Positions 10,811 through 64,000 of a stretch of DNA of 64,000 nucleotides are shown here, piece by piece (positions within the stretch are counted from its first letter, which is position 1; every line of letters begins with the position of its first letter). Made by a program: the position numbers and the translations under genes. The stretch is from the NCBI GenBank assembly GCA_030272155.1, contig CP126199.1:2542001-2606000 (forward strand), given 5' to 3'. Source of the DNA: Tetradesmus obliquus. Its lineage: Eukaryota; Chlorophyta; Chlorophyceae; Sphaeropleales; Scenedesmaceae. Under the pieces are notes generated by a model. That model did no database searches and was not told the origin of the DNA. It saw nothing but the letters and a program-made list of their open reading frames with translations.

Positions 10811-13800
10811 TCAGTCCTCATCCATCATCGGCACAGGCGGAAGGTTGAACACATCTTCTGACACGTGCTGCCCCACTCTGCTCTCCGCAGCAATGCGCTG
10901 CCGGCCGCCTGCTACTGCTGCTGCTGCTGCTGCTGCCCCATTTGCTGCTGCTGCTGCCGCCCCTTTGCTGTCACGTGGCACTGCCTGCTCCAGCTCCCGT
11001 ACCACCTCAGGGCTCACCTGCGGCAGACAACAACATAACAAACAAATTCAAATTGTGTTACGAACAGACGGTGTTACGCAGCCGCTGTTGGTTGCTGGCC
11101 TTGTGCAACAAAATCCATGTGCTCTACATCAGGAGGATGCCCCAGCAGCACACGAGGATGCACCCCTCCTGCCACACACATTATGACACTCTATTCCCAT
11201 CAAATGCTGCACAGCATGCTGCCGCAACACGCCGCCTCACGCCACATGCACAATCATGCAACATGCTCTTTCATAACCAAAAAAACATCGCACTATCTCA
11301 TTCCAAGCAGTTGCTGCGGGGCTCACCAGGTGGTGGTGCTGCTTGGCTGTCAGCCGCAGCAGGCCGTCCCTGTCAGCAGCGGTGAGCTGGTGCTTGTAGC
11401 GCGTCACAAAGCACAGCAAGCCTTGGTGCCACACCACAGGCATGACGCGCGCTTCACCCTCAAAGGCCAGGAAGTGCGCCGACAGCGCGTCAACCACCTG
11501 CAGGAGCACAGCAAAGTATATGAGCTTCAGCATTGCGTCCAGGTTCGCAGCGAGGTGTTCACCATGTGAACGACAGGAGCATGGATGATCTGTAACCCTG
11601 CATGCGGCCGGGTGATCTGACGAGATGAACAGGGTTGGCATTGGCAGGCAACATCAGAATGCGATTGCAGCATTTGCAACTGCTGCACCGCCTTCCCACG
11701 CATGCAGCAGCACGGCATGCTGCCATGCAGAAAACACACACCAGAGGTGGAAGCTCGCCTGCCTGCATGCAACCTTTTGCAATCACTCTATTGACATACA
11801 CCCCACCTTGTAAGGCAACGCGTACTTCTTGTCCAGCAGCACGCGTATGAAGAAGCTGGTCGTGCCGCAGTACTCCAGCCCAGCCAGCCGCAGCAGCGCA
11901 GCAGCAGAGTGCAGCACAGGCAGGCTGGCGCGGCGCAGCACGCTGCTGAAGATGACGGCCTCGCGCAGGCTGCAGGTGCGGCTGGCACACAGCGGCAGCA
12001 GCAGGCCCTGCAGTACGGCAGCAGTGAAGGGGCAGTGCAGCAGCGTTGAGCAAGGGGTATGGCAGCAAGCTGCTGAGAATCACGGCTTCGCGCAGCGAAC
12101 AGGTGCGGCTGGCGCACAGCGACAGCAGCAGGCCCTGCGGTACGCCAGCAGGAGTGGGGAGGCAGTGCAGCAGCTGTGAGCAAAGGGTATGGCAGCACGC
12201 TGCTGAAGATGACGGCCTCGCGCAGGCTGCAGGTGCGGCTGGCACACAACGGCAGCAGCAGGCCCTGCAGTACGGCAGCAGTGAAGGGGCAGTGCAGCAG
12301 CGTTGAGCAAGGGGTATGGCAGCACGCTGCTGAAGATCACGGCTTTGTGCAGGCTGCAGGTGCGGCTGGCACACAACGGCAGCAGCAGGCCCTGCGGCAG
12401 CAGCAGCAGTGGGCAGGCGGCTCGGCAGCAGTGGAGCAACGGCAACACGCAGCATGCTGTATCAACTGCTCAGCGTTTTGAAGATAAACCCAACAAACCC
12501 CAACACCAAAGCCCTAGGCGCACCTTGTAGAATGCGCCTGCTTTGTAGGTGGCCTTCTTCAGCGCCTGGAACAGCGCAAAGTGCAGCCGCCTGTGCTGCG
12601 CGATGTCGCGGCGCACGCGCGGCAGCAGCACCAGCGCCAGGAAGCGCTGCGCCATGCGCGCGTTGAGGTTGGACACAAACATCTTGGTGGCCACGTACCT
12701 GCGGTGGCGACCGTAGGTAAATAACAAGGTTGTGAATCAAGGGCTTCAAAGGAAAAATTACAGGGGCGGTTGAAGCTTGGGTTCATGCTGGCTGAGGCAG
12801 GGAAAATTCACTTGTTTTACTTGCCGCGCACAGCCATACACTAATATGACTAGCAGAGTGCGACAACACCAACGGCAAAGTCTGTCTACTGCTGCCGCTG
12901 CCGCTGCCGCCGCCGCTGCTGCTGCTGCTGCTGCTGCCGCCGCCGCTGCTGCTGCCGCCGCTCACATGGCGTGCGGGCTCCAGTGCTCTGGGTCAGTCAG
13001 CTGCAGCACCTCCTCCCAGTTGAGCAGGTTGGGGATGATCTTGAACGCCTTGGGCACCTGCGTCATATGACACATAACACATGTTACGCATGTAACATAC
13101 TAACAGCATTGCACGCGAGCACAAAGTAATCCAGCTCATTGCCGTTAGAACGCGGGCGGCTCCGTCGCAACAGCAACTTTGGTTTGTTGGTAACCAGATC
13201 CATAGTCTGACTGAAAGCCAGGACATTTGCTGCTGCTGCTGCTGCTGCTGCTGCCGTCACACACCTTGCCGTTTGTGTACCGCGCCAGCAGCTGCCCCAC
13301 CCCCCGGTACACCTCCACCACCGCCTCGTCCAGGCCCTCAAGCCCGCCAGCCCTGCAGCACGGCAGGAAGTAACACAATAACATGTTAGTATGCATGTTA
13401 CTTGACATGCTGCAGGGGGCGAACCACAAACCACCGTATAGGTGGGGGGGGGGGGACGCGGGGTTCCGAGCTACCCCTACCCCCGAGCTACCCCTACCCC
13501 CTAGTCGAAAAGTGGCTTCCGAAAGGGGAGTGGCTACCGCAAGGCCGGGCTCGTCGAACCCCTACCCCCTATGCGAAAAGTGGCTACGCGTCCCCCCCCC
13601 CCTATACGGTGGTTTGTGGTTCGGCCCCAGTACACCTCCACCACCGCCTCATCAAGGCCCTCAAGGCCACCAGACCTGCAGCACGGCCCAAAGTAACACA
13701 GTACCAAGTCAGTAAGCATGTTACATGACATGCCGCAGTACACCTCCACCACCTCCTTGTCAAGGGCCTCCAGGCCGCCAGACATGCAGCAAGCCAGAGC

Positions 13801-13989
13801 GAAAACGCAGCTGCACGCTGTGATTTAACATGACAGTGCAAAGGAGGGACATAACACAGAGTCGCAATAGGGTGCCTAGCCGACAATGCAGCAAAATATG
13901 GCAGCGGCTGAAGCCAGAACTGCACACATTCCTCTGCAGCCACCAAGCAGCACAGCGCTGCAGCACGCCCTCACCCGAACTCTGCTGGT

Positions 13990-14020
<31 letters not shown>

Positions 14021-16007
14021 TGCCACCTGCTGCCGCACTGCCCAGCTGCTGCTGCTGCTGCTGCAGCCGAGCCATGATGGCATCTGCCAGCGTGCGCTGC
14101 CCTGCTGCGCCTGCGCCCTGCAGTGCTGCCGGGCTCATGAAGGCAGCCAGTGCAGCCTCATCCTCAGGGGAGATGTCGTCAGCCTGCAGCAGCAGCAGCA
14201 GCAGCAGCAGCAGGGGCAGTGTCAGGGGCGCATCGTAGCTCAACCCAGTGTGGCACTAAGGGCGGCATCAACACCCCAGGTCATGTTATAGAGCATCAAC
14301 CTGCTGGGCGTGCGCATACCAGTCACCATACATGATGCCTGAAGAGGATCAACACCAATGACGGTGTTGTGCTGAACGCAATGACTGTGTTGTACTGAAT
14401 GCATGAGTGGCCAGCCGCTTGCGTCATCGCCACCCCACACGCCGTCCGCCTCAGTCACGCCGCCCCAGTCCTCCCCCGGACTCGCTGTCGCTGCTGCAAC
14501 CAAATGCAGAGCTGCTTGCAAAAGCTGCAACAGGTGTAACCATGCTCATCCGCGGCGCTGCTGCCGCACAAGGCAGCAATTCCAAAACGCACATGCGTCC
14601 TGAAGGAGCGCTGCTGTCCCCGACGAATTATAACGTAAATTCTAGACCCTGAACCTGCCACTCACGTCATCGCCGCCCCACACGCTGCCCGCCTCAGTCA
14701 CGCCGTCCCAGTCCTCTCCTGGTTCGCTGTCGCTGTCGTGCAGCTGCTGCAGCGCGGCTGCGATTGCGTTGGCAGGGATCTGTGCGCCAGCAGGAAAGCA
14801 GAGGATAACGTATCGTGTCAGCGTGCAGGTTGAATCAGTGCAGGGGCAGGGGCGGGGCTCGTTTGTGCAGTACTGCCAGTGACGCCGTGCTTCAGTTTGT
14901 TTGCATGTGTGGCTGCCAAATTATGTATACGAGGCTGCATGTGCGGAACTGTTCGGTACTGAAGGGCACCACCAGGGCAAGCCATCTGTCACAGTCCTGA
15001 ATGCGTCACCATCTGCTGCTGCTGCTGCTGCCGCCAACCCCACCTGTGTCGGCCCTGCTGCTGTTGCTGCTGCGCCATCCTCCGCATCCAACTCCTCCTG
15101 CTGTGCGCGCGCCTCGCGCAGGATCCGCGCTGACACATCCTGCGGCACTGCCTGTTGGGGACGACAGCAAGTAACAATTTCAGCACAGGCAGCAGTTGCA
15201 AATGTTGATGGTGGGATATGGCGACGTGATGCGCTGTTTGGGTGTTGCGAGTGACGTGCAAAAGCCGTGCAAGCCAGCAGGGAAGTACGCAGAAGGTGGA
15301 GACGTAACATCCTGCCCTTGCTGCCGCTGCTGCTGCTGCTTCTGCTGCTTTCAAGCCTCCAAGCTTCCATGCAAGCAAAACACACGGCATGTGCTGGCCA
15401 TGTCCAAAGTCACATGCTGGAGCCTGCAGCACTCGACCATGCTGGTGGTTGCCAGACAGCAACCAGGCACAGCAGCCAGTTTCACAATAGTCTGCTTAAA
15501 GGCCCGTGGCTGAATTACTTGTTCATTGTTCACACTGCCTCCCACCTCCTCATCGTCTTCATCTCTCTATGTGGCTGTACTCATTCACATTTCATGGAAA
15601 CATGGAAGCAGCAGCAGATAATTGCAAAGCCTCCCACCTCCTCATCATCTTCGTCTCTCTTGCGGCGCTTCTCAGCGCGTGACTTGGTCTGCGCACCACG
15701 CACACCAGGCACGACCATGTCACGGCATGAAGGTGCACATCACACCGTCAGCTGACACGCCTGAGCCTAGCAAAGCAACATGCAGCTTCCATTGTTTGCT
15801 GTTGTGTTCCAGATGCAGCTGCCGTGTACATTTTAGCCGCAGCTCTCACAGGTGTGCCACAGCAAAAGTGCCGACAACACTTTTACTGTGTCACTGGTTT
15901 GCTGAGCTGCAGCCACTCACCCTTACACCATAAGATTCTGGGTCCTCAATTTGTGCCCCTAAGTCCTGTTTATGCTTGTCTGGCCGCTGCTGCCGTTTCT
16001 TGCCCAT
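10811..16007 (-). CDS. BYSL: Bystin (ENP1/BYSL), 40S ribosomal subunit assembly factor
   Basis: Nucleolar/cytoplasmic factor for pre-40S maturation. Eleven exons: 16007-15927, 15688-15638, 15151-14993, 14779-14666, 14183-13975, 13352-13265, 13057-12966, 12698-12524, 12007-11807, 11497-11327, 11017-10811. All phases join and give about 515 residues (human 437, yeast about 480). Start ATG at 16007 opens [15 protein letters not shown]. Diagnostic blocks in order: [129 protein letters not shown] and [15 protein letters not shown]. The short basic-acidic exon 2 ([13 protein letters not shown]) fits the N-terminal region. A polyQ run in exon 5 is lineage-specific. Introns carry partial copies of exons 2, 4, 6 and 9, listed separately. 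Head to head with A49. Confidence 0.95.
12008..12391 (-). repeat. Three 127-130-bp tandem copies of the bystin exon 9 start with its 3' splice site
   Basis: Reading the minus strand, units start at 12391, 12264 and 12134, and the true exon 9 starts at 12007 (spacings 127, 130 and 127). Each unit begins after an AG acceptor with about 66 nt closely matching exon 9, encoding [14 protein letters not shown] and on to FSS or LSS, then diverges into about 60 nt ending in the next acceptor. Only the last unit continues into the full exon. After the 66-nt segment each unit has GTGCTG, a possible donor. 66 nt is in frame, so skipping or inclusion would both keep reading frame. Confidence 0.85.
13421..13622. 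mobile_element. MITE-like foldback element with about 37-bp terminal inverted repeats
   Basis: The left end, GAACCACAAACCACCGTATA followed by GG and a G-run, is repeated inverted at the right end, where a C-run leads into the complementary sequence. Inside each arm is an 11-12 G tract ending in ACGCG. The roughly 120-bp middle has short direct repeats (GAGCTACCCCTACCCCC) and no coding potential. It lies in bystin intron 5, directly against an echo of exon 6. No clear target-site duplication was seen. Confidence 0.75.
13623..13786 (-). repeat. Two partial copies of bystin exon 6
   Basis: The copies at about 13684-13623 and 13786-13738 encode [17 protein letters not shown] and [17 protein letters not shown], against the parental exon at 13352 ([16 protein letters not shown]). 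The first keeps the CTGCAG acceptor; in the second the AG has become ATG. Neither runs on to the exon donor. Confidence 0.85.
14408..14492 (-). repeat. Decayed copy of the bystin exon 4 end
   Basis: About 85 nt match the 3' part of exon 4 ([17 protein letters not shown]); the copy reads [17 protein letters not shown]. Its donor has changed from GTGAGT to GCAAGC, so it should not be spliced. It lies in intron 4. Confidence 0.8.
15536..15568 (-). repeat. Short copy of the bystin exon 2 donor end
   Basis: The minus strand reads AGAGATGAAGACGATGAGGA followed by G and GTGGGAGG, matching the exon 2 end (RDEDDEE plus GTGGGAGG donor at 15638) with two substitutions. The donor is intact, with no exon acceptor behind it. 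Confidence 0.7.
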
Positions 16008-16620: not shown

Positions 16621-16881
16621 ATGGGCAAGCGCAAGCATGCAGAGGCGTCACCAGCAGCAGGTGATGCTGGCACAGCAGCTGAGCCACAAACAGCTGAGAA
16701 GTCATCTAAAAAAGCCAAAAAGGCAAAGCAGCAGCAGGCAGAGGAGCAGCCAGTGGCAGCAGCACCAGCACCAGCAGGTGCTTCAGCCGAAAAGAAGAAG
16801 AAAAAGGACAAGCAGCAGCAGCAACAGGAAGATGAGCAGCCAGCAGCAGCAGCAGTAAAGAAGGAAAAGAAACGCGACGCC

Positions 16882-16928
<47 letters not shown>

Positions 16929-19900
16929 GCCGCCAGCAGCAGGAACACCAAGCACAAAGGAAAAGAAGAAGAAATACAAGCAGAAGCAGCTGCAGCTACC
17001 ACCCGGCCTGCCAGTGCACCAGCTGATTGCAAAAGCCCCAGCTGCTGCTGCTGCTGATGATGATGCTGCTGCATCACACATCAGCATTGCTGTCGAAGTT
17101 CTACGAGACCCCATAGTGAATGAAAAGCAGCTACTCAAAGAAGCCCGGCGAAGCAAGGCAGCAGCAGCAGGCAAGAGCAGCAGCAGCAGCAGCGGCGCCG
17201 CAGGCTTGAGTAATGCTGAGGCGGCAGCAGTGCAGGCGCGCGCTGCGCAGCTGCAGCGGGGTGTTGGCCCTTTTGTGTTTGCACTGGGTGCTGCTGGCCT
17301 ACGGGAGGCTGATGAGCAGCAGCTGGGCTTCCAGGTTAGGGGCGGATTAGCAGTTTTGCAAGGAGGCTTGAGGTGTGCATTCTGTTTGCTTGTTTTGTGT
17401 TTGTGTTTGGGGAAGCAGCTGGCCTAGGGGAGGCTGATGAGCAGCAGCTGGGCTTCCAGGTGAAGGGCGGTTTAGCAGTTGCAACAGGATGTGAAGAAGG
17501 CGTGAGCTGTGCATTTGTTTTGGTAATGGTGTTTGGGGTAGCAGCTGGCCTGGGGGAGGCGGATGAGCAGCAGCTGGGCTTCGCAGTGCGGCCCTGGTAG
17601 ATTGAGTCGACGGAGCAGCATGCCAGGCTGTTGCTTATTCAAGCTTGACTGCCAGGGAACTGAAGTTGCACGTACCCTACATTGCTACAGCAGCACAGCA
17701 CATCAGCAGCGCCAACAAGCGCACTTGCAGCGCAGCGCACCAGCTGCACAATTGCGTGTTGCTGCATTCCTGCCCTGCACATACCAGCGGGTGCCCCAGT
17801 GCCCTTGTACCTGCTTGGATGCTCCAGGCTCTGCACTGGGTTGCGGCATCAGGCATAGCCCCAAAAAGCCTGCTGTGGTGCACTGCTGTGCTTACCATTG
17901 TGGTGCACTGCTGTGCTTACCATTGTGGTGCAGTGCTGTGCTTACCATTGTGGTGCACTGCTGTGCTTACCATTGTGGTGCAGTGCTGTGCTTACCATTG
18001 TGGTGCACTGCTGTGCTTACCATTGTGGTGCACTGCTGTGCTTACCATTGCTACCTTTTGCTGCAGGCGTATGCAGCGGATCCCGCCAAGGAGAGCCACC
18101 CCATGTACCTCGTCAGCAGGCTGGTGAGCAGCAGATGACATGACAGCAGCTGCGCATGTGACTGTACTACTGTATGGGGGACGTGTGTTATGTACATGGA
18201 TGTGATTGATATGGCGAGTTGCATGCACCATGCAAGGTATAGCTTGTGTCTCTTGTGCACAATATTATATATCTTGGCCGCAGCGTGTTGACCTGGTGAA
18301 CAGCATTTATGCCATATGACTTGAAGGCTGTCAGAGGGCGCACCAACACAACACGTGTTACTGACTGCCAGCCACAAACCTGCATGCTGCTGCTGTTGCT
18401 GCCTGCAGCCTGGCGCCAACCTGATTGCCACGACTGAGATGCCAGTGCAGTCAGCAACAGACAAGGCACAGTGAGTGGCGCCCCCAGGCTGTGTATACAA
18501 AACTGCTAGGCAGCAGCTGCTGCAGCAGTGGATGGCACACTGTGGGAGTGCAATGGCTGCTGCTGCAGAGATGTGCACAGCCTCAAATGTTGTGAATTGC
18601 CAGCATCAGCGGCGTGCTCTGCTGCTGCTTAGTGCCGGGCGTTGCTGACAGCAAGCTGCTCAATTTGCCTGCAGTACATGAAAAATTACATATTAGAGTA
18701 CAAGTAGTGAGCACCAGACAGTGACCGCTGTCATTGCACAAGCTGTGTCACTCCCATACCCCAGTTTCACTTGCATAATAAATGCTGCTCTGCTGCCTGC
18801 AGCTATGTGGTGGGCATCCGCAACAAGCGCACTGGGCAGCTGCGCCTGGCCGAGGCAGCCGGCGGCTCGCTGCTGCGCCTGGAGGCCCAAGCGGCGGCAG
18901 TGAATGACGCCGACGTGGCTGGTGTGGTGCGGGCGGCACAGCAGCAGCAGCGAGGCCCTCAGCCGGATGATGTGGCGGCAAGGCGGCTGATGGCCCGCAG
19001 GTGGGAGGGGTGATGGGCCGGGTAACGGCAGAGCAGTGTTGCTTGTGCTTGGCGTGTGGGGCATGTTTGCAAGCTTTAGGGGACAGTGACATGTACGAGA
19101 CAGCCGCATGGCTTGTGCTATGGGCCTGGAAGCGAACGGGGAGGGGACGGGGAGTGAATGACGCTAACGTGGCTGGTGTAGCAGCATTCTTTATCTATTT
19201 CCTATAGTTAGGCTGCACGCGCCGCTCCCACATATGCAACTGCTGCTGCTCCTTCCCGAGTGCTGTTGAGCTGGAATCAATGCGTGAACACACCAACACC
19301 ACCCCTGTACTACTACCAGTTTGAACGCTGCTCTGCATATTGGTTTTCCTTGTCACATGCAGGCTGGTGGAGGCCTTTGGCTCCACGCGCCGCAAGCGCC
19401 AGATGAAGCAGCGCGAGGAGGGCGCAGTGGTGGCGGCACGCAACGCCGACACGGAGCGGCTGGGGCTGCTGCTGGGAGAGGTGGCTGCACGCGCCACAGC
19501 AGCAGGAGAGACACGCGCAGAGGTAAGCAGCGGTTGCAGAAGGTGTGACAGGCGTTGTAGCTGGTGTTGGTTTGAGTTAATGCAGCTTGGGGGCCTGGTG
19601 CTGCTGCTGTGCGAGGTGGCGGCACGTGCCACAGCAGCAGGAGAGACGCGCGCAGAGGTGAGCACCGGTGCAGAAGGTACGGGTGTTACTGCAGGTGTTG
19701 AGGTGGGCTGATGCAGCTGTCAGAGGCTGGTGCTGCTGCTGTGGCATGTGCCGCCACCGCGTCACAGCAGCAGCAGGGGAAACGCGCGGAGTGGCGAGGG
19801 AGGTTAGGGAGGGGTGGGCGTAGGGTAGGGTAGGGTTGGTTGCCATGCCGACATGAAGCGGCCGGGGCTGCTGCTTGGAGAGGTGGCTGCACGTGCCACG

Positions 19901-20119
19901 GCAGCGGGAGAGACGCGCACTGAGGTGAGAGTGGGCCAATGTAGGGTAAAGTAGGCTTGAGCTGAGTTTGTTGCAGCAATGCTGGGGGTACGAGTGATCG
20001 CATATGCGGACGTGCACAAGATCAGTGCGATTGAGGCTGCAGGCCCCCCTTGCTGCTACTGCTGCTGGGCCGTGCCAACCCAGTGCGTTCCTTACTGATC
20101 TCTGCTGCTGCTGCTGTCC

Positions 20120-20155
<36 letters not shown>

Positions 20156-49708: not shown

Positions 49709-49772
<64 letters not shown>

Positions 49773-50826: not shown

Positions 50827-52767
50827 CTGCAGGACAGCAGAGAGCATGTGGCAAATGCAGCGGCCTAAAGGACATGACCACGGGTGCATGCTGCTTTGAG
50901 CTGCAGCTGCTTGACGAAAATTAGCGTCAGTTGACAACGCCGCTTTTACAGCATTGAATGCTTGCAGCAAATGAAGCCAGCTTGAGTGCATGCTGGGTGC
51001 GCTTGCTGAGTGTGGCTTTCCATGGCTCCAGCACAGTGCTGGGCTGCTGTTCTAAGCAGCATGCAAGCAGTGTTCACCAGCCTGCATCTGCAGAATATGC
51101 TGCAAAGCATAGCTGAGAGTGACCGGGGCGTGCCTGCGAGCCTTCTCAAGCAAGTCCTTGCTGCTGTGCAGCCACTGCATGCTGCTGGTGCAGCTCTCTG
51201 CTGCCTTGAGAACCTGTGCCCCTTCATCGCAGCCAACAGAGCTGTGATCAAGCCGAACATATGGTTCCGGCATCGTTGTCAGCATCAATGGTAATCAAAC
51301 ATCGGATGTGTGTGCTTCGGTCACAGCGTTCATTCCAAAATCAACCGACACATGTGCACAGCTACACAAGCCTATCTACAGAACCACACGTTCCGCAGAT
51401 CCCTTGACGTCAGCAACACATCGACCCTCATCCCTGTCAAGAACGCGAGGTCAACAGCCTTGTGGCCGGGTCCACGGCTAGGGTTTTGAAGAGGTGCAGT
51501 GCCTGCATGCTGCTGGTTGATTGTCACCGTCACAGCGCCTGTCTTGCAGGAAAGCGCTCCAACAGGACAATGGAACGTCCTTGATCATTTCACGGGCCTT
51601 GCGAGATCTTGAACAGCACAGATATCACTTCTCATGTCAAATTACCAGCCTTGTACACCCCATGACACACTGCGCACATGCAATAGTGAAATTGTGCACA
51701 CATGCAATGGCTATTTGAGGAGATCTGCAGCAGCATACGCTGCTGACTGCAACCACACAGATCTGCACGACAGCTGCCTTACAGCTGCAAGAATAATATT
51801 GGCAGCATCACGTAACCAGGCAGGGGGGCTGTCTCCGATGCAGCTGTGGCTGATTCTGTTCAGGCTTGCAGCTACACAGCAGTACAACAGCTTCCCTCAG
51901 CATACACCTGCCATACATACCTTCACATGCTATATGCAAACAGCACACAACAGCTGTGCACCTGAACACCGTGCACCAGCTCGCAGTTGGCTTATGCAGC
52001 CATGCACCTCACAGCCCTGCCCCTTTTCAGGCAGACACACAAACCCGCCCTCCCATAATACTGGCTGTGGAGTGCCCAAAAGCAGCAGCACAATCAATCC
52101 GACTTGATGAACACCTGGCCCGCGTTTTGTGATCAATCAGCCCGTCAAACATTGTGTGGTTCACACAGCTGGCTTCACCATAGCAGCACACTGTGGTTGC
52201 AACAAGAACTGCTGTAAGGCGCCATGAGATTGCCGCACTCTGCCGAGCAACACACACCACCTATCTACTTGTCACTGCACGCGCAGCGGGCAGCACAGCG
52301 TGCAAAACATGCGCCTTTGACGGCTGGGGGACTTTGTGCTTGCAGTCCCCACAGGCTTCACGCTAATCTAAAGAGGATGTACATCACTGTAATCAGTTGT
52401 CCGAACCCCAGCACACCCGTGCACACATAGCCACACATGCCACTGCAGTAAAGCTGCCAGGTTCACACGGCATCAGCAGTGTGCTGCTGCTGCTGCTGCC
52501 GCCGCCAGCTCATCAGCAGCACTGTGCTTCTGCTGCTGCTGCCGCCAGCTGGTCAGCAGCATTCTGCTGCTGCTGCTGCTGCCAGCTCAACAGCAGCACT
52601 GTGCTGCTGCCGCCAGCTCATCAGCAAAACTCTGCTCCTGCTGCTGCTGCTGCCAGCTCACCACCAGCCCTTCTTGGCAGGTTCAGGGGCTGCTGCAGGC
52701 CCACTGACAAGAGCCGCAGCAGCCCTGGCAGCAGCACCAGTGGGCAGCTGTTGCTGCTGCTGCCAGC
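50827..52767. other. Intergenic; possible coding fragment at 51010-51290 (+)
   Basis: No gene recognised. A plus frame near 51060-51270 (LHLQNMLQSIAESDRGVPAS and on) has a plausible helical composition but no partner exons. 52470-52700 carries degenerate CTG-rich repeats and an echo of the septin end. The first exon of the transporter is expected somewhere just above 50827. Confidence 0.35.
52655..52683 (-). repeat. Echo of the septin C-terminal codons
   Basis: The stretch CTCACCACCAGCCCTTCTTG plus GCAGG repeats the septin stop region (parent at 52768-52793, encoding PAKKGWW and the stop). It lies in the 3' flank. Confidence 0.7.
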
Positions 52768-55700
52768 TTACCACCAGCCCTTCTTGGCAGGTGCGGGTGC
52801 GGGTGCTGCTGCTGCAGGCACTGGCTCCGGCTCAGGCAGCGGTGCAGGCTCGGGTGCTGCTGCTGGCTGTTGCTGCTCCTGCTGCTTCTTGGAGCCCTTG
52901 CTGCCGCGGCGCAGGTGCTTGCTGGCGCTGCTGATCTTGTCACGCACCTGCGGTAGCAGTAGATAGCACATCAGAAGTCAGCAGCAGCCGAGCTGGAGCA
53001 ACCAAAGGATGTGGCAGCAGCCACCACACCAGCTCTTTATCATTTGGCTGCGGCGCACACGTCATGTTGCAGCACACACGTCATGTAGCACAGCACCAAC
53101 TGTAGACTTCATTGCAGCTTGCAGTCAAGGCCGGCGCTGACCTGCTGAGAACCCTAAGAACAGGCTACTGAGTAGACCAGGGCTGCTTTGCCGCGGTATA
53201 ATATTAACACAATGAGTGCGCTAGGGTGTGTGTGTGCTGGCTTGATGTGCGAGCGCACACAACTGTTGTGACTGAGTGATGACGGCCTTGCAGACAAAGC
53301 GAGCTTGACAGCCTTTGATGGAGTAATCTGTGTTGTTCACAACTGTTGTTCACAACTGTTGTCCGTCAAAGACTGTCAATCCAGCAGATGACGGCAGTAC
53401 CAAGGGGGGGGGGGGCACACATGCTACAGCAGATGCGCACCTGCTTGACGTTGATGCCACGCTGCGCACACAGGTAAACCGCGATGGTGAGCACACATAA
53501 CAACCCACGTCCCAAAAAACAAATGCCACAGCAGCTGCCCACCTGCTTTCTCACGTCAATGCCGCGCTGCGCAGCGCACAGCGCCACCGGCAGCACCATG
53601 GTCCGCACACCAAAACAAAACCCACAGCCCAAGAGTCAGATGCCACAGCAGCTGCGCACCTGCTTGACCATAAGACGAAAAACAACACACACAGCCCAGA
53701 ATAGCCCAAAAGGTGCCACAGCAGCTGCCCACCTGCTTGACGTCGATGCCGCGCTGTGCAGCATACAGCGCCAGCGCCACCGGCAGCACCGTGGTCAGCG
53801 CAAAGCGCTTCAGCCGCGTGCCGAAGCGGGGCCCAGCCAGGCGGTGCTTGCGCCACGTCTCGTACCTACACACAGCAAGCCACCAGCAGCAGCAAGTCAG
53901 TGTGAAGTATGTACTTGGGGCTGCTTGCCTACGAAGCCGGGCCCAGCCAGGCGGTGCTTGCGCCACGTCTCGTACCTACACACAGCAAGCCACCAGCAGC
54001 AGCAAGTCAGTGTGAAGTATGTACTTGGGGCTGCTTGCCTACGAAGCCGGGCCCAGCCAGGCGGTGCTTGCGCCACGTCTCGTACCTACCAGCAGTAAAG
54101 ACAACATAACACAATCAGCAGGTGCCTGCAGCTGTGATTTATAGCAGCACATGCGCCAGCTCAAGCAGGCTGCTGTGACTTTAAAAGAGAAGCGCAGCAA
54201 CACGCAACACAGTTTGTCATCTCAGCTGCAGTCTAAAAGACGTGCTGAAGCTCTAGCTGCCGCCCCCACCTGGTGCGCTTGTCCTTGCAGATGTCCTCCA
54301 GTGCCTCCTTCAGCAGCAGCGCCCTGCAGCAGACAAACGAAGCACAGCCGATTCAGCAACCACATTGGCAGTAGCAGCAGCACTGCAGCAGCAGAGTTGT
54401 AGCAGTGCACACACAGCAGCACTTCCAGACGAGCCGACACCGAAACTGGCAACTTCATCCCTTGCAGGATTGCAGCACAGTGATAACTGACAAAAACAAA
54501 CACTGCTCAACATAACACGCGGTACTGCCCTCACCTAAGGTGCAGCAGGTCGCTGTGGTCGGGGTTGAAGGCCTGCGCTGTGCCCCAGGGGTAGCGGCGC
54601 TCCGGCCAGAACACCGGCACCTCCATCTGGTTCATCTCCTCGTTGATGTCGTTGCTGGCAATGACCTGGCAGTCAAAGCGCGGTCAAAGTGTGGTCAGCA
54701 GTTGGTCAAAGTGGATTCAACATGCCCCAGCTGGGGTCAGAATAGGTGTGATTGAAATGCGTTAGCGCCGCAACCTTGAAGGGGGTGCAGTGATTGACCG
54801 CCAAAGAGCAGATAAGCCAGCATAAAAGGCTGCGCTCATACAGCACAGACTATAAAGCATGCTGCAGGTTGACCAGCAGCTGCGCACAGTGCTTGCGGGC
54901 ACAAGATATCTGGAATATGTGCAGCGGGTTCGGCTGCAGCGTAATCAACAACCGCAGCTGCTCCAGCCCCACCCAAATGCAAACAGCAGAGCTCCCTGTC
55001 CGCACTCTCTCTGCGCTCACCAGGAAGGGCGGCGTGTTGCTGCCCGCTGCGTCGCCCATGCCTGCACGCTCCAGCGTCTCCTTGTCGAAGCGGAAGGTGT
55101 TGATCTTGCCACGCACGCCGTGCACGTTGGGGTTCTGCAGCAACATGATGGGGGGTTCAGAAGCGACAGCGACAGTCAACCAGGCACAAAGCAGGATGTG
55201 GCGTAAACAGAAGATAAGGTTGATATGCTGCGTGCTGCTGCTGCTGCTGCGCACAGTAGCCTGCGTCAACATGGAAGACGCGCAGAACGCACTGCACTTG
55301 GCAGCCTGCTCACAACCACCGCCTCACCTGCAGCCTGCTGAAGACCTCCTGCTTGTAGTTCTGCGCCTCGCGGATGGTCATGGTGTCGGCTTTGGTGATG
55401 ACGGGGATGATGGGCACGGCCTTGCCCAGCTCGTACATGTACCTGGGCGCAGCAACAACAGCAAAAGCTTCAAGGCATGCTCTCACAACCACTAGAGATT
55501 GCAGCAGGCAGCAAAACAAGGTCCTACTCCGTTGCTGTGCTTGAGCCACACCAACTGGGTGCGCCACTATGCGAATCCTTGCAGCAGCTGTCACAGCTGC
55601 CTGCTGCGTTATTGTCAGCTGCAATCTGCAGCTGTGCTGAGCTGTGTGCCGCAGCTCTGAGCGCGCCACCACCACGAAACAGTGTGTCACAATGCACAGC

Positions 55701-58129
55701 ACGTGCCCTGCCCAACACCCCATATGCAAATGCGCACCTGATGTCGATGGGCCTCAGCCTGTGTGGTGGCACGCAGAACAGGCACACATCAATGCGAGGG
55801 TCCTCCACCTGCACCGCACAACGCAGCAGCAGACACAATAGCAGATGTTGGCCTTATGATTTATTTGATCTGACCAGCTCAAGCATTCTACCTTACCACA
55901 TGTATCATCCGTCAAACCCTGCCTGCAGTGCCATCGCAAGCTGGCAGAATACCTGAGTTGTGTCATGCATGCCCACTGGCCGTCGCCGCACAGGGCTTCA
56001 CCAGGTGGACACGCCAGGTCGCAGCAGTGAGAAGCACAGACCGCATGAACAAAACACGAGAATGACAGCAGTGAAGCCCCAAACAGTGCGCCGCACCTCT
56101 GTGAGGTCCTGGCTGCGGTCGCGCGCGGACTCCAGGCTGAGCCACTTCTCGTTGCAGGCGTTGATGTGGCCGTTGATCATGTTGATGTGGTTCATGATGT
56201 CCAGGTCGTCGCCGTAGCCGGGAGTGTCCTGCATTCACAGACACAGCAGCAGCAGCTTGAAGATTGATGTGGTTCATGATGTCCAGGTCGTCGCCGTAGC
56301 CGGGCGTGTCCTGCACAGCACCAACAGAAGACAGCAGCCGCAGGAGCAGCAGCAGCAGCAGGAGCTGAACATTTGGGATGTCTTGTTGTATGCAGCTCTA
56401 CAAGCAGCACGACTATGACATGCCTCACATGTGTGTCTGCCGACGGCTGCCCACCTGGATGCGGTACACCCAAAACATGGTCTCCCTCGTGCTTCCAGAT
56501 CAGATCAAACGCTGCAAGCCCCTACAAGGAACAAAGCACACCCGCCCCAGCAGACACACAGCCATGCGCCCCCACCCACCTGGATGCGGTACACCCAGAT
56601 CACCCTGTCCTCCTCGTCCTTCCAGGTCACCGTGGAGCACAGCGAGTCCGGGTCCTTCACAAACTGGTCCGCGGGCGTGTAGGTGCCGTCGTGCACCTGC
56701 GGCAGCAGCAGCATGTGGAACACCAGCCTAAGCAGCAGTTGGTTGTGCCTGAAGAGGCCCGCTGGACCCCAGCAGCTGTGTACGAACGTGAAGCTGCACC
56801 AGCTGAGCGCAGCCGGCCTGCAGTGCAGTATACACTTGAACCAGGGCCGCACTTTGGTCCATTGCTGTAAGAGCACTGCAAGCTGCGCCCGACGTGCCTC
56901 AATCAAGCTTATGCGCTGCTGCTGTTCAACTGCGTCACTGCTCCGCCGCACCTGCAGCCTCTCGCCTGGTGTGCTGAGCAGCGTCTTGACCAGCGTGGTC
57001 TTGCCCAGGCCGCTGTCACCCACAATCAGCACCTGCAGCAGCAGCAGCAGCAGCAGCAAAGGTCAGAATGGAGGACTCTCAACGAAACGGTTGCGTGATC
57101 CTGCAGCTGCTGCATCTGCTGTCTGATCTTACAATGGCTGATGCTGGCAGTGCAACTGATGGTGAAGCAGTGCTTTGCTTTCCCACATCATACATATCTG
57201 CAGCCGGCTGAATCCCCGCACCTTGATGAACTTCTTCTTCCAGATCTTGTGTGGGCGCGGCCTGCGCGGGCCCAGCAGCGCCTGCTGGTTCACGCGGCTG
57301 TCGTACATGCGGCCCGAGGCGCTGGTCATGCTGTTCAGCCGGTCTGCAGCGGCGCAATGCATGCAGGAAGCACAAAAGGGTACAGGTACAGGTGAGCTTG
57401 CACGCAGTAACTTTGCTCAGTATATGTGCCAGAGGCAGGCAGAGGCTGCGCCATGATGTCCAGGATGCAGGCGTGCACATGCGTACGTGGACGCGTGCTT
57501 CTATATGTGCAAGAGCAACAGGAGCACGGGGTGAGCATTCCACACCAGTTTCCCACACCAGTTTCGCGGCGGCAGCGGCTGTGCAGCTGCCACAAAGCAC
57601 CCCAACGGAAATCACTAGTGCTGCTGCAAGCCAGACTGCTACGAGCTGTGATGATACCAACAGCTGTGCAGGCTGTTCACCTGGGCGCCTTGAGGCCATG
57701 TCACCATTGACATAGCCGTCATAGTCGCCACCATCTGCAACGGACAACAGCGCAGCACAATGCAGCAGCAGCAGCAGCAGCAGCAGCGGCGGCGTGAGGA
57801 TGACAACAAGAATGCAGGCGCAGCTGGCATGCTGGCTCCTACGGCTGCTTGGCATGATCATTTGCAGCCTGGGTTAAGCCATCTCCGTGAAGCACTGCTG
57901 TTGCTGCTGTGCCAGCACAGACAGCTGACAGGCAACAATAGCTGCATATACACGCTGTGTCATGCCGGGTACCGCCTCAGTCAAACGCACCAGCAGCTGA
58001 CTGGCGCTTGCTGCCCATGTCCAGGGACTGCATGGGGTTGGCCCCCTCAGTCAGCACCTCAGAGGTGCGGGCGTTGCGAGATGCTGAAAAGGCTGAGGTC
58101 ATTGTGCCATACATGCTGCCAGCTGTCAT
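52768..58129 (-). CDS. SEP1: Septin GTPase with C-terminal transmembrane segment
   Basis: Filament-forming GTPase. Thirteen exons: 58129-57991, 57734-57681, 57343-57222, 57032-56952, 56696-56580, 56228-56097, 55808-55738, 55442-55328, 55134-55021, 54665-54535, 54323-54270, 53865-53733, 52947-52768; all phases join to about 480 residues. In order: a short N-terminus with MTSAFSASRNARTSEV; the polybasic membrane-binding stretch RRPRPHKIWKKKFIK; P-loop GDSGLGKTT; G3 DTPGYGDDLDIMNHIN; CLFCVPPHRLRPID; G4 PVITKADTMT; NTFRFDKET; and the septin unique element PVFWPERRYPWGTAQAF with LLHLR. A hydrophobic segment follows (FALTTVLPVALALYAA), then a Pro/Ala tail ending AKKGWW. A septin with a C-terminal membrane helix is known from Chlamydomonas. 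Start: first in-frame ATG; an upstream exon is possible. Eight exon echoes sit in its introns and 3' flank. Confidence 0.94.
53440..53680 (-). repeat. Three copies of the septin TM-exon donor end
   Basis: The parent exon ends AAQRGIDVKQ|GTGGGC at 53733. Copies read AQRGINVKQ|GTGCGC (about 53440-53480), VLPVALCAAQRGIDVRKQ|GTGGGC (about 53538-53605) and a short VKQ|GTGCGC (about 53655-53676). All keep a GT donor. Confidence 0.85.
53932..54088 (-). repeat. Two copies of the septin TM-exon acceptor end (110-bp unit)
   Basis: TAG|GTACGAGACGTGGCGCAA and the next 30 nt (YETWRKHRLAGP) occur at 53865 (true exon) and again from 53975 and 54085, spaced exactly 110 bp. The intron between the first two repeats is duplicated too and is nearly identical. 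All three acceptors are intact; only the last leads to the full exon. Confidence 0.9.
56250..56313 (-). repeat. Copy of the septin G3-exon start
   Basis: Repeats TGCAG|GACAC then PGYGDDLDIMNHIN from the exon at 56228, acceptor intact, then diverges. Inclusion would duplicate the G3 motif and break the frame soon after. Confidence 0.85.
56449..56480 (-). repeat. Copy of the septin exon 5 donor end
   Basis: WVYRIQ|GTGGGC echoes the exon end at 56580 (WVYRIQ|GTGGGT). Confidence 0.75.
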
Positions 58130-59066
58130 GCCTGCAGGAAGGCGGTTGACCCGTGGTAGGTCAAGTCAGGCAGCAGGCACAGCAGGCAGGCAGCAGGTGA
58201 GCAGCCGCTGGGCCTGGGGCATTCCAAATGTTGCTGTAAATGTGTATTCTGCGCAGCACTGTATGCTTGTACAGCATGGAAGCAGGGAGGCCTTGGCAAT
58301 ACGGCTGGCCTCTTTTTGGCGCTGCGTTCAACTGCAAATGTTCAGAAGTTGGCTCAGATACATGCAGCAAGATTGCGCTGCGTTGATCGTTTGATTGTCA
58401 CAAGATCAGTCGCTTCCATGTGCACGGCTGCGTGATGAGCTGCTTTTCAGCCAACAGCCTGGTGGTGGCCAGGAGCCCTCGCTGGCAGCTGACTGTGTTG
58501 CTTGCCTGCGTCTCCGTTGGAGTTGTTGTATGAGTACATCCACTGGAGATGTATCGCTTGACGGTCTGCGCCTGCAGAGAGCTGCTACCAACAACTAGGG
58601 TGTTGTAAAGAGACCAGAAGACACACGCACGACCTTCAAAACAATCAGACACTACTGTTGCTTCGATCGCACCTGGCGTTAAGCCCCATACGGTTGTCTG
58701 TCTTCACAAGGTACAACGTTGTCAGTTAGGCCTAACCTAATGTTCAAACTTCGCGACAGAGGGACCGCTGGATTACTCAATCACTTGCGGCTCTAAATAG
58801 CAGAACGCTTACAACTTGTTATTATGAGCCTGCTGCTGTTGATAAGTGACCACTGTATGCCATCCAATTCGTACTGGTAGGAGAAGTCCGTCTGCACTCA
58901 GTGCAGTGACTGATGGATCAAGTCGGCCACAAATGCGCCAATCATCAGGCCATACGCACCTGCTCAAGCATAGCACTGTGTACGCCACACATGTTGCCGG
59001 CGGTGAGATGCCACCACAGAGGCCACACAAAGCTACCATCGTCACCCCTCCCTGCACCACCCACAG
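58130..59066. other. Intergenic: septin 5' flank and hydrolase 3' flank
   Basis: No gene seen. TTACA at 58809-58813 gives TGTAA for the minus-strand hydrolase, about 255 nt past its stop. Confidence 0.45.
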
Positions 59067-61564
59067 TCAACCAGCAACATGCTGCAGGACATCACTGACT
59101 GTGCTCAGCAGCAGCTGAAGATCGTGTTTCCTGGACAGCCGGTGGTCCCCATCTTTCACCAGCGTCAGTGCCATGTCCCTCGCAGGAAGCTGCTCGAACA
59201 GCTGCTGCGAGGTGGCGACTGGCACAGTGTCATCCTGCACCACAGATGGGTAAAAGCATAACAACATTCAAGGTTAGCAAGCCTGCTACTTGCCTTACTG
59301 GTGACACTAGCTATCAATGCAGTTGTGTGACACGTGGTTGCTTTGTGTCCACAGCTGACCTCGAAACCCTAGTGACATTGTGCTGCTTCAATGCAGTTGC
59401 GCGCAGAGATCCAAGCCAACGCAACTTTGCATGCATCAGCATCTCAAGCGCAGACAGCAGAGCTGGCTAAGCAACAACAGCATCCTGCGCACCCACCTGC
59501 ACCCCATGCAGTATGCGCACAGGGCAGGACACCTGCAGCTGCTGCAGCTTGTCCAGCAGCAGGAAGGGCTTTGCTGCTTCAAAGAACTGCATCTTCACCA
59601 TGATCTGGCCATCATCCATGTAACTGCTTCCCAATGAGACACGGCCCTGCGCATCAAGAAGATTATGGTTTTAACAAAAAGCTCGTCCTCGTGTCCAGCT
59701 GGAGCCAGTGACAGGCCTCTTTGGGCACGTAGAGCAACACACACCGCAGTGCATTATCAGAAATGCAATGCTTGCGACATGCACTGCGCAGCCTGGTCTA
59801 TGCTGTTGCGCGACAATGCTGTCGCTGCCGTCATGACATACTGCTGCGTGCAGTGGCTGGTGATACTAAGGTTGAACGTCAGAGTGCTTTACTTTGCCAT
59901 GCACATTAACATTCACGCTACTGCACTTGGCACATGCTGCAAGACAGCACATGCAATTAAACTAGGCATCCACACCTACTCACCGTTTGCTGTGCCTGCT
60001 GCTGCTGCTCTGCGCTCAGGCCATGCCAGAACTGCTGCGTGATGTCCAGCGCTGGCGCCACCAGCACCAGGCCAGCCACCTGCTGCGGCTGCTGCACTGC
60101 CAAGTGCAGCGCTTGCCAGCCGCCAAAGCTGCTGCCTGCGGTTTGACGGCAAACACGTTACTAGCAGCTGTGTAAACACCAGCCACCTGCTGTGGCTGCT
60201 CGACTGCTAAGTGCAGTGCTTAACAGCCGCCAAAGCTGCTGCCTGCGGACGGCAAATGAGTTTGCTGACATAACAGCAACCCTCATGTTCGCTGCTGGTG
60301 TGCATAGCATGCGGCAACGGCGAGGTTGCATATCACTTGCTCGGCAGCCAGAAACAATGCAATCATTCTGTCAAAACACGTGCAGCTTTAGTTCTGCGCA
60401 GAGGCTCCACGGTATCACCTAGCATGCAACTGTCCGCGCCCTGTGCACACACCTACAAGGACGTGCCGCTTGCAGGGTGCCAGTGACATGGCCGTGACGG
60501 CGTCTTGGTACCAGTGCTGGATGTCTGTGTCTTCAAACTTGTCGGATGAGCTGCATGTGGCAGCAGCCGCAGCAGCAGCAATGCGCAGCGACACACAGAG
60601 CTTCACAGCCCGCCAGCGTATTTCACAGAGAAGCAGCACTTGCCTGTGGAGGTGCAAGTCAGGGTCCTTGGAGAGTGCTCTGCTGACGCATGTGGGCACA
60701 GGAGTATGAACACTTCTGCACATTTCAATGCAGCATCTGTTGCCTTGCCGCTGTAAGTGCCTGCTGCTGGCATCAGGCAAGCTGTGTAACAAATAAGGTA
60801 GTGCCGCTGAGCACTGTGCGCTAGCAGCGCTGTGCTGTCTTGTGCCGCTGTGGCATCCCACGCGTACAGCTGCCTGCCTTGCTGTGAAGTGCAGAAGCTG
60901 CGTAAGGCACTGCAGTTTTGTAGATGATCACGGCCGAATGTGAAGCCGTCCTTTGATGTGGGAACACACCTGCCATGCCCCCTGGCATCATAACAGAGGT
61001 AGCCAAAGCCATGCCGCTGCGCATGCTGCTCCAGCGCTCTGGCTTTGGTGCTGCATGTGCAAGTGGCGGACACCAGCTTAGGTCTTTGCAACGCCCAGGT
61101 GATGCATTTGCAAGTTGACCATTGCACTTGCACTGCATGATAGGAGCAAACACGGCAGCCTGTGCCAGCAAGCACAGCAGCCTGTCAGCAGCTCAACTGC
61201 TGTCAGTCCTGCAAGATCAAGCTGGTAGTGCTACTGGTGAACTGGTTGTTGCGATGCCGACAGTCTGAAGAAACACTTGTGCAGCCATCCAGCATACCAT
61301 GGCATTGCTGTGCAGGTCATATTGCTGCACGTTTGCAGTGAGCGCTCACCCGCTCATGTCACTGCATAGGCCATGCAAAAAGATCACATCCACGTCGTTT
61401 TGACTCCTGGGAGCTGTTACACGATAGGCGATGTGGCCTCCACCAGGCAGGTCATGCCGCAACTGCCTGGTACTGCCATTAGCTGATGTGGCAGCAGCAG
61501 AAGTTGCTGCCATCCTCAGTCTGCTGCTGCTGTTGGTGGACCTGATCAGCGCGCGATGCAGCAT
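59067..61564 (-). CDS. ABHD10: Alpha/beta-hydrolase of the ABHD10 type
   Basis: Likely mitochondrial serine hydrolase; the animal homologue is an acyl-protein thioesterase/esterase, substrate here unknown. Exons 61564-61350, 61050-60970, 60550-60453, 60135-59984, 59646-59497, 59234-59067 join in phase to 287 residues (human 306). The first about 40 residues are basic and Ser/Ala-rich (MLHRALIRSTNSSSRLRMAA), a likely mitochondrial presequence. Then HIAYRV, VIFLHGLCSDMSG (oxyanion region), GFGYLCYDARGHG, DIQHWYQDAVTAM, the nucleophile elbow VGSSFGGWQALHLAV split by an intron after VG, LVLVAPALD, CPVRILHGVQDDTVPV with the acid Asp, and LVKDGDHRLSRKHDLQ with the catalytic His. Divergent from the CYP97 gene. 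Confidence 0.87.
60181..60252 (-). repeat. Decayed copy of the hydrolase nucleophile exon
   Basis: Begins CAG|GCAGCAGCTTTGGCGGCT like the exon at 60135 (GSSFGGWQ), acceptor included. TGGCAA has become GTTAAG, which creates a TAA in the exon's frame. Inclusion would truncate the protein at the catalytic Ser. Confidence 0.85.
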
Positions 61565-61991: not shown

Positions 61992-64000
61992 ATGCTGCTT
62001 CAGCGGCGTCAAGTAGCTGTTGCAGCAGGCGCAGGCGGCAGATATTGCCCAGCCAGGCCCCACAGCACCAGCAGGACCAGCAGGCTGTTAGTAGCAGCAG
62101 CAGCAGCAGCAGCAGCAGTAACAGCACGCAGGCCCTTATCCAACGGACTATCCCTGGTGTCCCCTGTTGCTTTCAGCCCCAGCCTGTCACGTCTCAGCTC
62201 TTCCTGCAAGCCTCAGCAGCTGCAGCAGCGCTGCAACCGCCGGAGCGTGCACACCCAGGCCTTTGACTCTGGCACAGCCCTAGGCGTCGCCCTCTTCTTC
62301 ACCCCAAGCATCCTGGCAGTCATCTATGCGTACTTCAAAGGCAAAGGAAACATCAGCGATGGCCTCAGCCGCATGCTCACAGAGTTCAGCCAGGGATACT
62401 TCCAGCCTGATGTAGGCGGCAAGAACATCCCTGTGGCACAGGGCGAGCTGTCAGACCTTGCAGGAGACGAGCCGCTGTTCAAGGCATTGTACCAGTGGTG
62501 AGTGGTGCCAATTTATTTTGCCGATGTTGCCGCTGTTTGATTGGCTTCAGCAGCAGCATTCAGAGCAGCATCAGGAGCAGCCGGAGCAGCAGGAGCCGCT
62601 GTTCAAGGCACTGTACCAGTGGCGAGGGGCGCTGCTGCTGTTCGCAGTTTTGCATTGGGTTCTGCAGCTGCTGACTGCTCAGCATCAGCAGCATTTGCCA
62701 CAGCAGCAGGAACATCAGCTGGGTCAGGCACGCTAACAGGCTGGGGGCTTGTGTAGGGCCGCGCTGCTGATACTAGGCACTGCACCAGCCGCTGTTTAAA
62801 GCACTGTACCAGTGGCGAGGGGCGCTGCTGCTTTCTTCAGGGTTTGTTGGAGCTCCTTGCTTGTCAGCAGCAGCATTCAGAACAGCAGCAGGAGTGGCGG
62901 TTGGCTGATGAGCAGTGGGCGCACTGGCGTTGGTGTCGTGCTGAGCCATGCAGGTGCAGGAGCAGATGAGTGGTGCTGCATGCAGGCTTTGGACTTGGGC
63001 TGAACTGTGGAGCAGCAGCAGCAGCAGCAGTTGATTCTTTTGGTAGATGCTAGTCATCTCAGCAGCATTAGCAGCTCACCAGCACAGAGCAATTGCTGTG
63101 TGCTGTTGAAAGCGGCAGGAAGCCGCTCGGGTGGCAGCTGACTAATGGTGCACATTATAGCAGGCACAGCAGCATGCACCAGCAGCAAACAGAGGTGGTA
63201 GTGCAACTGGGACGAGCATGCGACCCCCAGCTGTACTCAGCCAGCGAAACATGGCAGCAGCTGGGACATGGCAGTGCATGTACCTGCTCCTGTGCCGTGT
63301 TCGCATTCACACTGGATGTGAGTACGGAGCTGCCTCTCAAACAAGCCTGAAAGGCCTAAACTACCCGCTGCTGCACGTCATTGGGAGCGGCGGCGTCTCC
63401 AAGCTGGACTTAGGGCCCAAGCCTTCACTTGTGTGTCATGTACCTAATAGCCCTGAACTGAGCCTGGTGCTGTTGCTGCTGCTGCTGCTGCTGCTGCAGG
63501 TTCATTGAGAGCGGTGGCGTGTACAAGCTGGAGTTTGGGCCCAAGGCCTTCATCGTGATCTCAGACCCAGTGGTGGTGCGCTACCTGCTCAAGGTGAGAC
63601 CTTGGGGGTGGTGTATCTTTGAACACATTGCATATTACATAGGCATCTGACAGTCAGCTTTACGCATAAGTTTGTGTATCAGACGTTGGATCCAAGCACT
63701 GCTGCACCCTGCTCAAAACCCCGTTGAACCCTGCCAACGACACTGCTGCACCCTGCAGGAGAACGCGTTCAACTACGACAAGGGCGTGCTGGCGGAGATC
63801 CTGGAGCCCATCATGGGCAAGGGCCTCATCCCCGCTGACCTGGACACATGGCGCGTACGCAGGTGCGCTGTTGCAGCAGGCCACTCTTAGGAAGCGACTG
63901 GTGAGTTGCGCCGCAGCGATGCCATGTGTGTACGTACCCATCTGCATGTATGGCCTTGGTGCAGCAGTCTGCTGCCTGCTGAGGCTTGCTCTGAAATGGT
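61992..64000 (+). CDS. CYP97B: Cytochrome P450 CYP97B-like, 5' part only
   Basis: CYP97 enzymes are plastid P450s; A and C members hydroxylate carotenoid rings, B is less defined. Exons seen: 61992-62497, 63500-63593, 63759-63862, phases joined; the rest, including the heme Cys, lies past the window. The first exon starts with a long basic Ala/Ser/Arg stretch without acids ([18 protein letters not shown]), fitting a transit peptide. A hydrophobic helix follows ([20 protein letters not shown]), then [20 protein letters not shown]. The next exons give [20 protein letters not shown] and [20 protein letters not shown], then [10 protein letters not shown], a block I recognise from plant CYP97B. 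Three echoes of exons 1 and 2 lie in the first intron. No continuation after 63862 was found before the window ends. Confidence 0.87.
62590..62830 (+). repeat. Two copies of the CYP97 exon 1 donor end
   Basis: [10 protein letters not shown] with donor TG|GTGAGT at 62498 recurs at about 62593-62628 and 62786-62818. In both, the donor is mutated (TGGCGAGGGG), so they read on. A flanking CAGCAGCATTCAGAGCAGCA-type segment is repeated as well (about 62548 and 62869). Confidence 0.85.
63373..63425 (+). repeat. Copy of the CYP97 exon 2 start
   Basis: GTCATTGGGAGCGGCGGCGT and the next 28 nt read [17 protein letters not shown], echoing [17 protein letters not shown] of exon 2 (63500-63593). The CAG acceptor is lost (CACGTC). 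Confidence 0.85.

Follow-up and report, generated by a model that had tools for sequence, protein, structure and literature searches.

The introns of a 64,000-nucleotide window of the genome of the green alga Tetradesmus obliquus carry partial copies of the exons that adjoin them, and these copies are probably a by-product of frequent short tandem duplications over a single splice junction, followed by neutral decay. The window is the whole stretch of DNA that was analysed (contig 9, positions 2,542,001-2,606,000, from a 104.66-Mb genome in 17 contigs), and we use the term echo for a partial exon copy that lies inside an adjoining intron. Echoes were traced in genes for bystin, the RNA polymerase I subunit A49, a septin, an EamA transporter, CYP97B and ABHD10 and in an ankyrin gene region.

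Exon maps based on homology were obtained for three of these genes, namely bystin (11 exons), A49 (10 exons) and septin (13 exons), by spliced alignment to the proteins P0001, P0214 and P0121, respectively, and the intron statistics given below refer to these three genes. P0001, which matches the bystin gene of the window, is a protein named as T. obliquus bystin. The match to the A49 gene, P0214, is named as a hypothetical protein of T. obliquus and carries the Pfam domain PF06870 (model OEZ86_001668), and the name A49 was taken from its relatives among the matches listed. P0121 and the septin model of the window show 100% identity over 421 residues, a rounded value as at least one residue differs. 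Exon 1 of A49 (16621-17334) was predicted by a gene finder and not by spliced protein alignment. The exons of EamA, CYP97B and ABHD10 also came from the gene finder, those of EamA additionally from reading of the sequence, and the ankyrin gene was considered without an exon map.

Abundance of exon copies in the window and across the genome

On comparing each intron with its flanking exons in the sense orientation, a Smith-Waterman (SW) score of at least 150 was reached in 13 of 62 pairs and of at least 200 in 8 of 62. At the lower threshold the controls gave 1/62 for flanking exons in antisense, 1/242 and 2/242 for non-flanking exons in sense and antisense, and 3/186 for shuffled introns, while at the higher threshold every control class was empty. 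The claim of the initial annotation that introns hold partial exon copies, which it had proposed to check against shuffled introns, is thereby borne out above all the controls for the three genes. Counted singly, the window holds 32 echoes at SW of at least 95, of which 24 score at least 150; the other eight (SW 95-150) are inseparable from the control range. The alignment runs exactly to the junction in 29 of the 32 and stops at most 2 bp from it in the other three, as had been described for nearly every copy, and the probes, being the 90 exon bases adjoining the junction, favour matches that touch it. Among the genes, bystin has seven echoes (six at SW of at least 150 and one of 122), septin six (five of at least 150 and one of 128), A49 nine of at least 150 along with one internal piece of 30 bp, EamA and CYP97B three each, and ABHD10 and the ankyrin gene one each. 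The counts given before agree for bystin, EamA, CYP97B, ABHD10 and ankyrin and come within one for A49, where ten had been reported, but the eight echoes ascribed to septin are reduced to six.

The orientation and spacing of repeats in the window follow the same pattern. Self-comparison by BLAST with simple repeats masked returned 43 direct matches at offsets below 500 bp (36 of them of at least 50 bits) against 9 inverted ones (2 of at least 50 bits), and at offsets of 500-1500 bp there were no direct and four inverted matches; the direct repeats among the matches listed are offset by 67 to 431 bp. Identities between the copies span 99% to about 70%, and the near-identical copy reported at 49983-50127 was recovered with 98% identity over 145 bp, so the view of a continuing local duplication process holds.

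To the window we added 25 loci of ten kilobases on the 17 contigs, 20 taken at fixed coordinates and five from a list with a random start. In these loci, direct pairs less than 1 kb apart number 183 and inverted ones 7, with 165 of the direct pairs spaced 50-500 bp; these figures count pairs, and multi-copy arrays thus enter repeatedly. At least one direct pair was found in 18 of the 25 loci and none in seven, so that local duplication in this genome is patchy yet widespread. No link of the echoes to gene type or to intergenic DNA emerged from the open reading frame (ORF) lists of 11 loci.

Tandem copies are a familiar difficulty for assemblers, and this general trouble is what would speak for regarding the echoes as an assembly artefact. 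That explanation is extremely improbable, as the copies are found at many levels of divergence and with frameshifts and stops, and as P0214, which stems from a contig of 5,903,853 bases (5,902,500 here), translates the echo at 17526-17585. The different contig size indicates that this echo is present in another assembly or version.

Probable origin by tandem duplication over one splice junction

In the explanation we prefer, short tandem duplications, mostly 50-500 bp apart, would arise often along the genome. Where the duplicated unit begins in an exon and ends in an intron, or the reverse, the tandem order would put an extra piece of exon into the intron, and this piece would bring along its splice junction and some of the intron flank. 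The outer junction would remain in use and the inner copy would be removed with the intron by splicing. Duplications lying entirely within coding sequence would, we infer, be eliminated by selection, leaving as survivors those that are intronic or span one junction. The rule noted earlier, that copies of acceptors lie upstream and copies of donors downstream, holds and is a necessary outcome of such events rather than a separate finding, because a tandem duplication over one junction forces both.

The duplicated unit holds an exon-intron junction in the window echoes, save for one internal A49 piece, and homology continues from the exon into the intron, for 63 bp at bystin exon 6, for about 66 bp of each 110-bp unit at septin exon 12, and at A49 exons 1 and 5 it extends over the greater part of the duplicated unit. 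The flanks were compared with a neutral simulation of tandem duplication for 22 of the 24 echoes, two being skipped for their short units, with 11-38 accepted simulation runs per echo. Identity at 7-20 bp beyond the junction was 0.74 in the 22 echoes against 0.745 in the simulation, and unrelated junctions gave 0.62 (donor) and 0.69 (acceptor) over the same distance. Random placement of units predicts that 62% of the events, counting those over one junction and those within introns, span a junction, and 14 of 16 were seen to do so in a hand count (p=0.026), a mild excess that a slower decay of exon-anchored pairs could produce.

Several observations weigh against this explanation. The piece of 30 bp from A49 exon 4 (19150-19179) stops short of the junction as aligned. 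At 21-40 bp beyond the junction the identity of the echoes falls to 0.65 against 0.75 in the simulation (Fisher p=0.085), which is no better than the 0.61 of unrelated donor and 0.66 of unrelated acceptor junctions, and as the outer flank lies at this baseline our confidence is slightly lowered. The remaining points come from the most similar copies. Of 35 pairs with at least 93% identity, 17 passed filters on length, array structure, spacer and simple repeats, and two of these (window 17874 and L023 7310, the latter by eye) were set aside as short-period arrays, leaving 15. The similarity of their flanks lies under the minimum of ten neutral simulations each in 16 of the 17 pairs (one barely) and in 14 of the 15 without arrays, and the flanks are about as similar as unrelated sequence in 12 of 17 and 10 of 15, respectively. 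Furthermore, a splice site of score at least 6 stands at the edge of the copied patch with the exon inside in 13 of 15 pairs and with the exon outside in 5 of 15, the mean for 300 random sets being 7.4 and the maximum 13.

This coincidence of edges with splice sites, seen in a small sample, is moderate and depends on the threshold. At a score of at least 7 the exon lies inside in 10 and outside in 4 of the 15 pairs (random mean 5.8, maximum 11), and at a score of at least 8 in 6 and 3 (random mean 4.4, maximum 10). In the window itself, copies end 1, 3 and 5 bp beyond the mapped junctions of A49 exon 6, A49 exon 9 and septin exon 6. Over 141 repeat pairs, a site of score at least 7 occurs within 10 bp of the end with the exon inside in 88 and with the exon outside in 52 of 564 ends, a weak signal beside the 0.118 (inside) and 0.094 (outside) of random interior positions.

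One way to account for the young copies is that gene conversion or template switching keeps re-copying the real exon into old echoes whose flanks have already diverged, which would add a later step to the duplication process, and we give this slightly less than an even chance. By a weaker inference than the rest of the mechanism, the exon part of some echoes would later be refreshed from the real exon, leaving copies that are nearly identical and end close to the splice junction; in old duplications, conversion from exon to echo would yield near-identical exon parts with diverged flanks, since it is the exon that is kept constant. The flanks of 14 of the 15 near-identical spaced pairs, too diverged for the identity of their exon parts, agree with this, as do the 5 of the 15 pairs that retain homology in one flank or both (shuffle p<=0.04, about one expected), the locus L026:6454-6738, where by eye the first and third of three exon pieces are almost identical and the middle one is decayed, and the echo of A49 exon 6, in which both of the two differences are replacements. 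However, in 10 of the 15 pairs the flanks resemble unrelated sequence, so that an older tandem duplication lacks support there, and the window echoes overall do not require conversion next to the junction.

Copying delimited by the splice sites themselves, for example on splicing intermediates or nascent RNA, would also place the ends or starts of exons into the adjoining intron. The edges of near-identical copies near splice sites at moderate thresholds and the three window edges within 1, 3 and 5 bp of junctions would fit such a process, as would the finding that none of the three spacers searched, of which two belong to the set of 15, is a dispersed repeat. The process is unlikely, since by eye most of the copies with a donor junction retain the GT and several further bases of intron, a sequence that the end of a spliced exon would lack, and other echoes bear long intron flanks. 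Moreover, a match to a splice consensus of 6-8 bases is partly due to chance, and the edge result weakens at strict thresholds. Taken more broadly, a recurrent process that copies the edge of the real exon into the intron next to it, with the splice junction as its limit and refreshed duplicates as its result, whether through exon-anchored gene conversion or through copying tied to splice sites, is put forward tentatively.

Neutral decay of the copies

As a group, the copies behave as dead sequence that decays neutrally beside a conserved exon. This was assessed on the 114 positions at which an exon and its echo differ, drawn from 22 echoes in four genes, among which copies of the same exon are not independent. 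The differences are distributed over the three codon positions as 28/22/64, and their synonymous share is 0.491. This agrees with the 0.449 that would be expected if the exon were constrained and the echo free (p=0.40) and departs from the 0.289 expected with exon and echo both free (p=6e-6). All seven gaps between exon and echo shift the frame, and two differences create stops. At amino acid differences in 20 echoes of three genes, the relatives agree with the exon in 40 cases, with the echo in none and with neither in 10.

These results render it very unlikely that selection maintains the echoes as functional exons, whether alternative or mutually exclusive. In favour of such a role, 15 of the 24 echoes of SW at least 150 retain the GT or AG at the junction when read by eye, and one duplicate pair of the EamA gene (48792-49040) has all its differences at third codon positions when read in the assumed frame, with seven synonymous changes and two replacements. 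The pooled synonymous share, in contrast, is that of a free echo, the gaps break the frame in 7/7 cases, two stops are newly formed, and septin P0121 agrees with an echo-free model. Both copies open and constrained, as is the mark of mutually exclusive exons, was not the outcome of the pooled test, the one EamA pair excepted; that pair, in which nine of nine differences fall on third positions, may comprise two working exons, unlike the other echoes.

As for splicing, echoes with a kept GT or AG could compete with the real sites, to judge from the letters of the junctions. The idea of the initial annotation that echoes supply decoy or alternative splice sites therefore stands in part, with 15/24 keeping GT or AG and P0214 beginning in an echo, but septin P0121 (seven members on seven contigs, each of at most 2732 bases) fits the echo-free exon map, and the pooled echoes are free of coding constraint. 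Nothing indicating the use of an echo was found in the septin-like proteins compared with the window. Internal repeats of at least seven residues occur in 2 of 218 homologous proteins (P0181 and P0194) and in neither P0001 nor P0121.

Contribution to intron length

The duplications account for the difference in length between introns with and without echoes, and the claim that they lengthen introns is thus substantiated. Introns with an echo have a mean of 556 bp (n=10) and those without a mean of 280 bp (n=21; p=9e-5), and after subtraction of the duplicated units the echo-bearing introns average 248 bp. Over all 31 introns the mean drops from 369 to 270 bp on removing the duplicated units, which make up 27% of the intron sequence. 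The added lengths were entered by hand from the alignments, with a 25-bp array in A49 intron 1 taken as 150 bp. By arithmetic on the 31 introns, the excess length of echo-bearing introns equals the duplicated units; longer introns also give echoes more room, and the arithmetic closes without that effect.

For the genome as a whole, Table 1 of PMC5966456 lists a mean intron of 462 bp in T. obliquus, from genes predicted with AUGUSTUS by its authors, and 230 bp in Raphidocelis, 302 bp in Monoraphidium, 284 bp in Chromochloris and 270 bp in Chlamydomonas.

Echoes in the individual genes

The bystin gene (10814..16007, minus strand) bears echoes of SW at least 150 in introns 4, 5 and 8. Intron 8 contains three copies of the start of exon 9 (12007-11807) together with its acceptor at 12062..12391, which recur every 127 bp or so and are 85-99% identical, and by our own reading of the alignments this array grew by higher-order steps, in which duplication of the unit of about 127 bp was followed by that of a unit pair of about 257 bp. 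The start of exon 6 (13352-13265) is present twice more with the acceptor region at 13625..13783, the nearer copy being that with homology 63 bp into the intron. A copy of the end of exon 4 (14779-14666) at 14411..14512 has its donor GT changed to GC, and a weak copy of the end of exon 2 (15688-15638) is seen at 15546..15597 (SW 122); all of these are on the minus strand.

In the A49 gene (16621..22467, plus strand, as are its copies) echoes at the same threshold fall in introns 1, 5, 6 and 9. The end of exon 1 is copied twice within 17400..17586, and the public model P0214 has the second of these copies (17526-17585) as its first exon. The first 20 residues of that protein are the translation of this echo, which replaces the long first exon 16621-17334 predicted here, and we read the start of P0214 inside an echo as an annotation error. 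Three copies of the end of exon 5 (19363-19522) are present at 19579..19929, two with the donor GT. The end of exon 6 (20174-20359) is copied at 20448..20487 with 95% identity, ending 1 bp beyond the junction, and that of exon 9 (21386-21553) at 21667..21724 with 96.6% identity, ending 3 bp beyond it; the spacer of the exon 9 echo has no further genomic site among the matches listed. Two copies of the start of exon 10 (22275-22467) are located at 22063..22219. Apart from these, intron 1 carries a 25-bp minisatellite at window positions 17874-18050, with about seven copies that are 97% alike.

The septin gene (52765..58131, minus strand) has echoes of SW at least 150 in introns 5, 11 and 12. 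The 13 exons used are those of the spliced alignment to P0121, and an extra short 5' exon was aligned at 58506-58539 with a weak donor. Two copies of the end of exon 12 (53865-53733) lie at 53441..53609 (SW 197 and 128), and at 53932..54089 there is a young 110-bp tandem array of 99% identity with the acceptor and start of the same exon. The start of exon 6 (56228-56097) is copied at 56264..56315 with 98% identity, ending 5 bp beyond the junction, and the end of exon 5 (56696-56580) at 56450..56502 with the donor GT present, all on the minus strand.

Also on the minus strand, 49947..50127 is a copy of the final part of an exon of the EamA transporter (50451-50232) together with its donor. Identity is 98% over 145 bp and reaches 99% in the 90 exon bases closest to the donor, beyond which a weaker match extends for about 20 bp; the intron flank is strongly diverged. 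Further EamA duplicate pairs are formed by 48376-48525 with 48627-48789 and by 48792-48869 with 48963-49040, the latter being the pair with changes at third positions. The start of the ABHD10 exon 60135-59976, placed by the gene finder, recurs with 18 bp of intron at 60179..60256 (minus strand). In CYP97B (plus strand) two decayed copies of the end of exon 1, an exon that ends at 62497 according to the gene finder, are found at 62538..62894 (SW 159 and 144), and the start of exon 63500-63593 is copied at 63378..63450. In the region of the ankyrin gene, a weak pair of duplicates (33481..33648, plus strand) has an offset of 117 bp and 80% identity and would concern a putative exon.

Three observations from the wider sample are recorded as well. 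The end of an exon is copied in tandem at L007:1759-1936, where by eye the copy has an acceptor-like site and a donor of its own, is set off by a spacer of about 42 bp and would keep the frame open; it is possibly a newborn intron or a cassette exon. L018:1-3956 is a satellite-like array of about 4 kb with a period of about 275 bp, and L019 contains a repeat of about 4.28 kb in which ORFs of 336 and 310 residues, with the same beginnings, recur in two units.

Relation to known routes of intron gain

Duplications within genes are reportedly a common process, as Gao and Lynch in 2009 are said to have described for internal gene duplication. The initial annotation had linked the echoes to intron birth by duplication over an AG|GT, and this link finds no support in the three genes. 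The signature of such a duplication, an intron start like the next exon or an intron end like the previous exon in register, was present in 0 of 31 introns, in which the best in-register match was 0.53, against 0.50 for the 95% level and 0.60 for the maximum of the null. Similarly, no new intron arising from a duplication over one junction was detected in the three genes, and P0001 and P0121 fit one-copy models.

Among the closest known cases is the potato RdRp gene, in which a tandem duplication over one intron-exon boundary made a new intron, backed by reads and relatives; the same paper (Ma, Lan and Niu 2016, PMC4974935) also mentions an 83-bp duplication restricted to an intron of this gene. 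The echoes are alike in that a tandem unit over one boundary brings splice signals into the copy, and they differ in that the extra exon piece stays within the existing intron, as it does in 10 of the 31 introns in the three genes. With intron gain by AGGT duplication, as outlined in the review PMC3443670, they share a local tandem duplication over a short distance by which splice sites are copied, but its signature is missing from 31 of 31 introns.

Introners, as described in PMC9860276, add intron sequence genome-wide, green algae included, and to this extent they resemble the echoes; unlike introners, the three echo spacers searched belong to no dispersed family of near-identical sequences. 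By counts that are lower bounds, one spacer occurs at home only, another has two partial copies adjacent to it, and the third has at least three weak partial matches elsewhere. An origin of the spacers from introners or mobile elements finds no support in these three spacers.

Among the open-licence papers listed, no account of echoes as a genome-wide feature of an alga was found, which is weak evidence of absence. Duplication across a splice junction is already known from single genes, and what is new here is its density, its effect on intron length and the young copies bounded by splice sites.

For annotators the A49 gene holds a warning, as its public model begins in an echo. If young copies bounded by splice sites hold genome-wide, a copying process beyond plain duplication would be needed. 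Short tandem duplications offer a simple account of why the introns of T. obliquus are longer than those of the four other algae in the tabulated means of PMC5966456. As each duplication can add a competing splice site, this genome would offer a ready collection of natural experiments on the choice between splice sites and on the material from which introns can be gained.

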